A stretch of 34,301 nucleotides of DNA from the NCBI GenBank assembly GCA_938021455.1, contig CALIGP010000121.1, forward strand, positions 1-34,301, written 5' to 3'. The DNA comes from an uncultured Lewinella sp. Lineage in GTDB: Bacteria; Bacteroidota; Bacteroidia; Chitinophagales; Saprospiraceae. A program made the translations under genes and the position numbers. Under the pieces are notes generated by a model. The model made no database searches and was not told the DNA's origin. It saw nothing but the letters and a program-made list of their open reading frames with translations. Of the stretch, positions 16,993 through 31,758 are shown one piece after another. The stretch's first letter is position 1, and each line of letters starts with the position of its first letter.

Positions 16993-17063
16993 AAAAAAGC
17001 GGTCAACAATCATCGACTCCTTCTCAAAAGAACGAGGTGATGATTGTTGACCGCAATTTTTTT
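16993..17063. terminator. Bidirectional hairpin terminator between terC-like gene and infC
   Basis: AAAAAA + GCGGTCAACAATCATC (16999-17014) / GATGATTGTTGACCGC (17039-17054) + T-rich tract to 17063; perfect 16 bp stem between convergent genes. Confidence 0.85.
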
Positions 17064-21313: not shown

Positions 21314-21391
21314 AGCGGTCAAGGGTTTGTATTTAGACTACCACCTTAATGTAACGGTAGGCTAAATACTAACCGTTGACCGCTTTTGTAT
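21314..21391 (+). terminator. Long hairpin terminator downstream of STAS gene
   Basis: AGCGGTCAAGGGTTTGTATTTAG (21314-21336) pairs with CTAAATACTAACCGTTGACCGCT (21362-21384), 21/23 positions, plus inner CTACC/GGTAG, followed by TTTTGTATTTT. Confidence 0.75.
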
Positions 21392-30861: not shown

Positions 30862-31113
30862 ATGTCTAAAGTTTGTAAACTCACGGGTAAGAAGCCGATT
30901 AGCGGTAACAACGTTTCCCACTCCAACCGGAAGACGAAGCGTCGTTTCGTTCCTAACATTCAGAAGAAGAAGTTCTTCGTTCCTGAAATAGGTAAGTTTG
31001 TCACCCTTCGCATTTCTACTTCTGCCATGCGTACCATCAACAAGCTTGGTGTATATGCTTACATCAAGAAGTTGGAAAGCAAAGGCATCGAAACTGGCGT
31101 TAAGCTGAAATAA
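30862..31113 (+). CDS. rpmB: 50S ribosomal protein L28
   Basis: 'MSKVCKLTGKKPISGNNVSHSNRKTKRRFVPNIQ...LRISTSAMRTINKLGV'. Confidence 0.97.
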   Translation: MSKVCKLTGKKPISGNNVSHSNRKTKRRFVPNIQKKKFFVPEIGKFVTLRISTSAMRTINKLGVYAYIKKLESKGIETGVKLK

Positions 31114-31155
31114 AACTAACCTCTGATAAAGAGAAACTAACAATAACTTAGCTCC

Positions 31156-31265
31156 ATTCATTTGGATGTTGGCTGCGTCAGCCAGAGAAACACTAACTCT
31201 GATGACAAAGTCGAAGAGTTAGTGTTTCTCTGGTTGACTGCAAAGCAGCCAACATTCAAATGAAT
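31156..31265. repeat. Very long hairpin (about 45 bp stem) between rpmB and rpmG
   Basis: ATTCATTTGGATGTTGGCTGCGTCAGCCAGAGAAACACTAACTCT (31156-31200) pairs with AGAGTTAGTGTTTCTCTGGTTGACTGCAAAGCAGCCAACATTCAAATGAAT (31215-31265). Confidence 0.9.
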
Positions 31266-31273
31266 CAATTATC

Positions 31274-31462
31274 ATGGCTAAGAAAAGTAAAGGTAACCGC
31301 AACCTCATCATCCTGGAGTGCACCGAGCACAAGACTAGCGGACAGCCCGGCACCAGCCGCTACGTTACTCAAAAGAACCGGAAGAATTCTCCTGATCGCG
31401 TTGAGCTCAAGAAGTACAACCCGATTCTGCGTAAGGTAACCGTACACCGGGAAATCAAGTAA
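31274..31462 (+). CDS. rpmG: 50S ribosomal protein L33
   Basis: '[62 protein letters not shown]'. Confidence 0.97.
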
Positions 31463-31518: not shown

Positions 31519-31692
31519 ATGGCTAAAGTATCAAAGAACTCTCGGACCGGCCAACGTGCCGCCAACGCTGGCTCCGGCCGCGATTTCATCAAAGTCGTAC
31601 AGTCCGTAAAGGATCCTGTAACGGGCAAGTACTCTTACAAAGAGGTAATGGTCCACAAAGACAAGATTGATGAATTCATGAAGGACAAGTAA
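31519..31692 (+). CDS. DUF4295 family small protein (57 aa)
   Basis: Below the ORF-track cutoff: MAKVSKNSRTGQRAANAGSGRDFIKVVQSVKDPVTGKYSYKEVMVHKDKIDEFMKDK*; follows rpmB-rpmG as in other Bacteroidota. Confidence 0.88.
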   Translation: MAKVSKNSRTGQRAANAGSGRDFIKVVQSVKDPVTGKYSYKEVMVHKDKIDEFMKDK

Positions 31693-31708: not shown

Positions 31709-31758
31709 GAAAACAAAGAGGCCCATTTCGCTAGCGCGACTTGGGCCTCTTTGTTTTC
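31709..31758 (+). terminator. Terminator of rpmB-rpmG-DUF4295 operon
   Basis: GAAAACAAAGAGGCCCA (31709-31725) / TGGGCCTCTTTGTTTTC (31742-31758), perfect 17 bp inverted repeat with T-rich 3' arm. Confidence 0.85.

Follow-up and report, generated by a model that had tools for sequence, protein, structure and literature searches.

A long, near-perfect hairpin lies between rpmB and rpmG in the window, which is the whole 34,301-nucleotide stretch of DNA from a marine Neolewinella that we analyzed. We read it as a lineage-restricted intercistronic hairpin in the rpmB-rpmG-DUF4295 transcript and, tentatively, regard an RNase III processing signal as its most likely role. It is most likely a local peculiarity of an already known kind, and not a new system, although its history is unusual and patchy. 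The features of the region, in window coordinates, are as follows.

30862..31113, + strand: rpmB (50S ribosomal protein L28), the upstream gene (TIGR00009, 95 bits)
31121..31133, + strand: small 4-bp hairpin CTCT/AGAG right after the rpmB stop (spacer folds)
31156..31176, + strand: outer stem, 5' arm, 21 bp (mechanical arm search and RNA fold)
31177..31200, + strand: inner stem, 5' arm, 24 bp (arm search and RNA fold)
31201..31214, + strand: tip GATGACAAAGTCGA, with 4 further pairs and a 3-nt loop (RNA fold)
31215..31238, + strand: inner stem, 3' arm (arm search and RNA fold)
31239..31244, + strand: 6-nt bulge TGCAAA between the two stems, 3' arm only (RNA fold)
31245..31265, + strand: outer stem, 3' arm (arm search and RNA fold)
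31266..31273, + strand: 8-nt single-stranded leader CAATTATC, with A at -3 and -6 of the rpmG start (sequence)
31274..31462, + strand: rpmG (50S ribosomal protein L33; NF001860, 81 bits)
31519..31692, + strand: DUF4295 gene, third and final one of the small genes (PF14128, 51.5 bits)
31709..31758, + strand: probable operon terminator hairpin with arms ending GTTTTC, conserved in the related genome G002 (arm search and G002 comparison)

The preliminary description reported a hairpin with a stem of about 45 bp between rpmB and rpmG that ends 8 nt before rpmG. The arm search and the RNA fold confirmed this hairpin at 31156-31265, 8 nt from the rpmG ATG (31274), with 49 predicted pairs (21 in the outer stem, 24 in the inner stem and 4 at the tip). 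The fold of 31150-31270 has a predicted energy of -76.3 kcal/mol (z = -13.4), and none of 200 shuffled sequences folded as well. Several details needed revision. The inner stem (GTCAGCCAGAGAAACACTAACTCT/AGAGTTAGTGTTTCTCTGGTTGAC, 31177-31200/31215-31238) is present and paired, but its length is 24 bp instead of the 18-20 bp first given. The outer stem does span 21 bp, and what had been reported as its single mismatch forms a G-U wobble pair when the sense RNA is considered. The internal asymmetry noted between the stems is present, and its exact form is the TGCAAA bulge in the 3' arm; on the 5' arm the outer and inner stems are continuous. Aligning the spacers defined a conserved core, GGCTGYGTYAGCCRGAGAAACA, which is carried by the inner 5' arm together with the end of the outer 5' arm. 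The place and size of the bulge (5-6 nt) are kept in the two other genomes that carry the hairpin, G002 and G008, and its sequence is not.

Family profiles support the original gene calls of rpmB as L28, rpmG as L33 and the DUF4295 gene. prfB comes after the DUF4295 gene, and a tRNA-Arg gene with a terminator-like hairpin lies upstream of rpmB. A search of the window with Rfam 15 returned tRNA only, and no RNA family matched the hairpin at its gathering threshold. Small hairpins are predicted after the rpmB stop in several relatives too, and their likeness to the one in the window is limited to position. An upstream sequence, AGAGAAAC..TAAC, resembled the inner arm by eye and was dropped, as it is not conserved in G002. 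Literature searches on this spacer or on Lewinella hairpins found nothing.

We examined the distribution of the hairpin in the host genus, Neolewinella, using 21 genomes including that of the window (G000). A hairpin occupies the same place in two of the other 20 genomes, G002 (152-nt spacer) and G008 (158-nt spacer). It is absent from the remaining 18, including the near relatives G003, G005, G014 and G018. Hairpin-free spacers in the genus are 11 to 66 nt where measured by script, and the longest overall is about 70 nt. Five spacers that the script had missed (G006, G010, G015, G017 and G018) were taken by reading the sequence, and no such hairpin is found in them. In another collection, the script found 66 Bacteroidota rpmB-rpmG spacers (three from Neolewinella), with 13 further spacers left unresolved. 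Sixty-five of the 66 are 2-55 nt long, and the outlier, at 131 nt, has a weak fold (-22.5 kcal/mol).

The hairpin is a single-copy feature in each of its three carriers. Searches of the window's own genome and of the genus, by DNA similarity or by core pattern, found no second copy above chance level. The exact two-arm pattern occurred in the three carriers only over 398 genomes. A covariance model run over 298 family genomes matched G000 and G002 only, which is a weak negative: G008, itself a training sequence, was unmatched, and its presence among the 298 genomes is not certain. A plasmid search for the hairpin gave no match. Two pattern matches in viral contigs were taken as chance, one folding without a matching long stem and the other having a short stem only.

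Trees of a Clp ATPase gene and of rpmB+rpmG+DUF4295 both place G000 with G002, and both group G008, G003 and G014, with G005 and G018 adjacent to them. The branching order of G003, G008 and G014 varies. Monophyly of the carriers was rejected with each data set (AU p = 6e-43 for the Clp gene and 0.003 for the flanking genes). Since G008 is not sister to G000 and G002 and its nearer relatives are hairpin-free, either the hairpin was ancestral to this clade, with three or more losses since, or recombination or insertion carried it from one lineage to another. As possible one-arm remnants, sister spacers gave an ambiguous picture, with z values of 2.5-3.8 for G014 and weaker or mixed results for the others, against z = 4.0 for the joined G000 flanks compared with the G005 spacer.

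Sequence identities give an uneven picture of conservation. The hairpins are 72% identical between G000 and G002, 75% between G000 and G008 and 83% between G002 and G008, while identity at fourfold-degenerate sites is 82%, 46% and 45%, respectively. Against G008, the hairpin is more similar than fourfold sites for both G000 (p = 7e-5) and G002 (p = 8e-8). Thus, over the long distance the hairpin has been conserved better than silent sites, and over the short distance it has not. A core under constraint, together with other positions that change fast and are compensated, would account for this pattern, as would transfer of the hairpin between the lineages of G002 and G008.

Comparing the rpmB-rpmG spacer among relatives, as the preliminary description had proposed, gave a positive result for covariation. 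Eleven pairs differ between G000 and G002, and all 11 are still paired: eight changed on both sides, three changed on one side by exchange of G-U and G-C, and none is broken. One further pair has been lost from both arms in G002. Across the three species, 95.7% of cells pair, and nine pairs show two-sided change, compared with 3.5 in shuffles (none of 500 reached nine) and 0-2 with partners slid; this test used three sequences and a structure derived from one of them. Comparison of G008 with G000 revealed six broken pairs in the whole hairpin, and the outer stem is partly decayed in G008. We also considered the excess of G-U over A-C pairs on the sense strand. The counts are 4:0 for G000 and G002 with the shared tip pair excluded (p = 0.06) and 6:2 over three species (p = 0.14), and this evidence was set aside as weak because the pairs are too few. 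The covariation, which exceeds its controls, suggests a structured RNA under selection, though correction at the DNA level could also act. Covariation by itself is no proof of function, because the distribution is patchy (18 of 21 genomes lack the hairpin) and template-switch correction is possible.

We favor RNase III processing because occlusion of the rpmG leader is predicted, RNase III genes are present and unmasking of start codons by this enzyme is known in E. coli. In the proposed mechanism, the hairpin would fold in the nascent mRNA and bury the rpmG leader up to -9. RNase III would cut the long duplex and set the rpmB mRNA apart from the rpmG-DUF4295 mRNA. After the cut, the rpmG leader would be largely unpaired, as with RNase III at E. 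coli adhE. The lineage may gain from this by giving L28 an mRNA half-life or translation rate that is independent of that of L33/DUF4295.

An RNase III gene (PF14622 over its cut-off) is present in G000, G002, G008 and the non-carrier G015. RNase III acts on duplexes of about two helical turns (~20 bp or more), and the predicted helices of 24 and 21 bp reach this length. The intact hairpin leaves positions -8..-1 of rpmG open. For -25..-9, the predicted unpaired fraction in the intact form is 0.02 in G000, 0.01 in G002 and 0.39 in G008. A 3' fragment starting 30-48 nt before the rpmG start raises this value to 0.50-0.59 in G000 and G002, and relatives without the hairpin give 0.41-0.58; these folds use one G000 coding start for all and assumed cut points. 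The preliminary description had offered an RNase III site or a translational control element as possible roles, and both would be compatible with the coupled arms, the RNase III genes and the folds, which predict that the rpmG leader is first occluded and then released. Several observations count against processing: 18 of the 21 Neolewinella genomes manage without the hairpin, in G008 the outer stem has partly decayed and the leader is less occluded, the G-U excess is weak, and some of the coupled changes can be attributed to template switching.

RNase III signals of this general form are familiar from phage T7 early mRNAs. The R1.1 signal is an intercistronic hairpin whose 3' side has an asymmetric unpaired stretch, as here, and its helix is shorter than that of the Neolewinella hairpin. 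RNase III cleavage unmasks the starts of adhE in E. coli and cIII in lambda, where the ribosome binding site is otherwise occluded (PMC5371410). The Neolewinella hairpin may resemble these cases as a structure by a start codon that would hinder initiation and that RNase III could remove. It differs from them in being intercistronic and in forming one long, near-perfect helix, and cleavage is known there and proposed here. In the E. coli rpsO-pnp operon, as in Neolewinella, a ribosomal-protein gene is separated by a hairpin from the gene that follows it, and RNase III cuts before pnp (PMC5371410). The genes are different, however, and cleavage in that operon destabilizes the pnp mRNA.

The main rival to processing holds that the hairpin is a dispensable DNA palindrome that arose by template switching (inverted copying) in a spacer of ~50 nt and was kept complementary by further switches, with any effect on the mRNA being incidental. 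We regard this as possible, if somewhat unlikely. Perfect stems can arise by template switching and can be restored by it (Monttinen and Loytynoja 2022, PMC8794818), and RNA hairpins made in this way share with ours long, near-perfect stems and multi-base compensatory changes. The published cases are RNA genes (e.g. microRNA and rRNA), unlike the bacterial operon spacer described here. Some of the two-sided changes between G000 and G002 are transversions, and these, like the pair lost from both G002 arms, can be attributed to template switching too. If presence is ancestral, absence from at least three sister lineages also fits a dispensable element. Against this explanation, conservation of the core extends to three species at a divergence of 54-55% in fourfold sites, and the bulge of 5-6 nt has not changed its place, although correction of the arms would tend to erase it.

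A census of long hairpins bears on the same rival. Hairpins whose arms reach 20 nt or more number 5.8 per 100 kb in G000, 4.8 in G002, 3.4 in G008 and 1.2 in G015, compared with 0 in block shuffles. Long hairpins thus characterize this lineage and are several-fold denser in the sampled G000 and G002 DNA than in G015, with the census covering sampled stretches of contigs picked by convenience and G015 being the sole non-carrier. The spacer between the STAS and metallo-beta-lactamase-fold (rnz) genes contains another hairpin (21314-21384). Its ends, AGCGGTCAA/TTGACCGCT, are largely kept in G002, and most of its stem interior differs in sequence there yet still pairs. Coupled turnover of arms is therefore not special to the rpmB-rpmG spacer, which supports the template-switch explanation. 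No 10-mers are common to the rpmB-rpmG hairpin and the other sampled long hairpins.

The sampled DNA contains further palindromes of several kinds. Long imperfect hairpins built from short repeated units (GGTAGAC/GTAGTCG) occur in G000 at 1398-1572 of the window and on contigs L240 (10552-10680) and L252 (3295-3446), and G002 has similar hairpins with other units (GTTGCAG, GTCAGGCA). The window hairpin at 1414-1514 is largely missing or different in G002 (1450-1514 compared), which indicates a fast-changing palindrome. Between convergent TerC-like and infC-like genes, a hairpin with 32-nt arms, an A-tract and a T-tract (16993-17060) has a counterpart in G002 and is likely a two-way terminator. 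Two near-identical perfect hairpins with TTTTTAT tails (AGC[AG]ATCAGCGGACAGCATTCAGG...) lie on different G000 contigs (L243 14338-14394 and L244 2948-3004) and are possibly a small multicopy element.

Processing and template switching could also be combined. It is conceivable, but unlikely, that this Neolewinella lineage places long, near-perfect hairpins between co-transcribed genes as RNA processing signals and renews them by template switching. Such sites would turn over quickly in sequence while the duplex and its cutting were kept, and the rpmB-rpmG hairpin would be one member of that set.

Autogenous control appears improbable; under this explanation, translation of rpmG would be repressed when L28, L33 or some other ribosomal protein attached to the conserved core and bulge. 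The site does lie between two ribosomal-protein genes at the rpmG start, its core and bulge are conserved and rpmG occlusion is predicted. However, no Rfam leader matched at gathering thresholds, and most of the genus lacks the hairpin. Known ribosomal-protein control sites are short and irregular, and a near-perfect duplex of 45 bp is unlike them.

It is similarly doubtful that a REP/REPIN-like or MITE-like mobile palindrome was inserted between rpmB and rpmG, possibly repeatedly or by transfer. REP/REPIN sequences with RAYT (TnpA-REP) transposases are intergenic palindromes (PMC3116915 and PMC8266576), and Y1 transposases (Y1_Tnp) are present in all five Neolewinella genomes tested, with no link to the hairpin. 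Insertion would also suit the patchy distribution, in which G008 is not sister to G000 and G002, and the greater similarity of the G002 hairpin to G008 (83%) than to its sister G000 (72%). Joining the G000 flanks with the hairpin removed gives a sequence resembling the hairpin-free G005 spacer (z = 4.0). REP/REPINs are multicopy, unlike the Neolewinella hairpin, which has one copy per carrier, none found elsewhere in the genus or on plasmids by DNA or pattern search and no 10-mer in common with the other long hairpins sampled. No target duplication was recognized by eye. The preliminary description had raised a mobile palindrome with several genomic copies, and a search for the arm elsewhere found no second copy in the window's own genome or in the genus; the multicopy form of this explanation is thus largely refuted.

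A transcription terminator or attenuator between the two genes is very unlikely: the spacer hairpin is very stable, but it is followed by CAATTATC instead of a T-tract, rpmG begins 8 nt later, a sigma-70-type scan (Bacteroidota promoters lie outside it) found no promoter-like site in the spacer, and a better terminator candidate follows the DUF4295 gene. The hairpin was absent from the list of the terminator scan, and we agree with the earlier view that it is not a simple terminator. Because the T-tract and other copies are both absent, we consider the hairpin neither a terminator nor a multicopy palindrome.

If processing does take place, a Bacteroidota ribosomal-protein operon would contain an intercistronic RNase III site. 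Shine-Dalgarno sequences are missing in Bacteroidota, and what tunes initiation is the local structure together with an A at -3, -6 and -12/-13 (PMC6847099). In such a phylum, the structure upstream of a start codon has a direct bearing on how that codon is used. The genus offers a small natural experiment, in which one spacer occurs with and without a 110-nt hairpin among close relatives. Arms that change together between sister species help to tell selection on RNA from template-switch correction.
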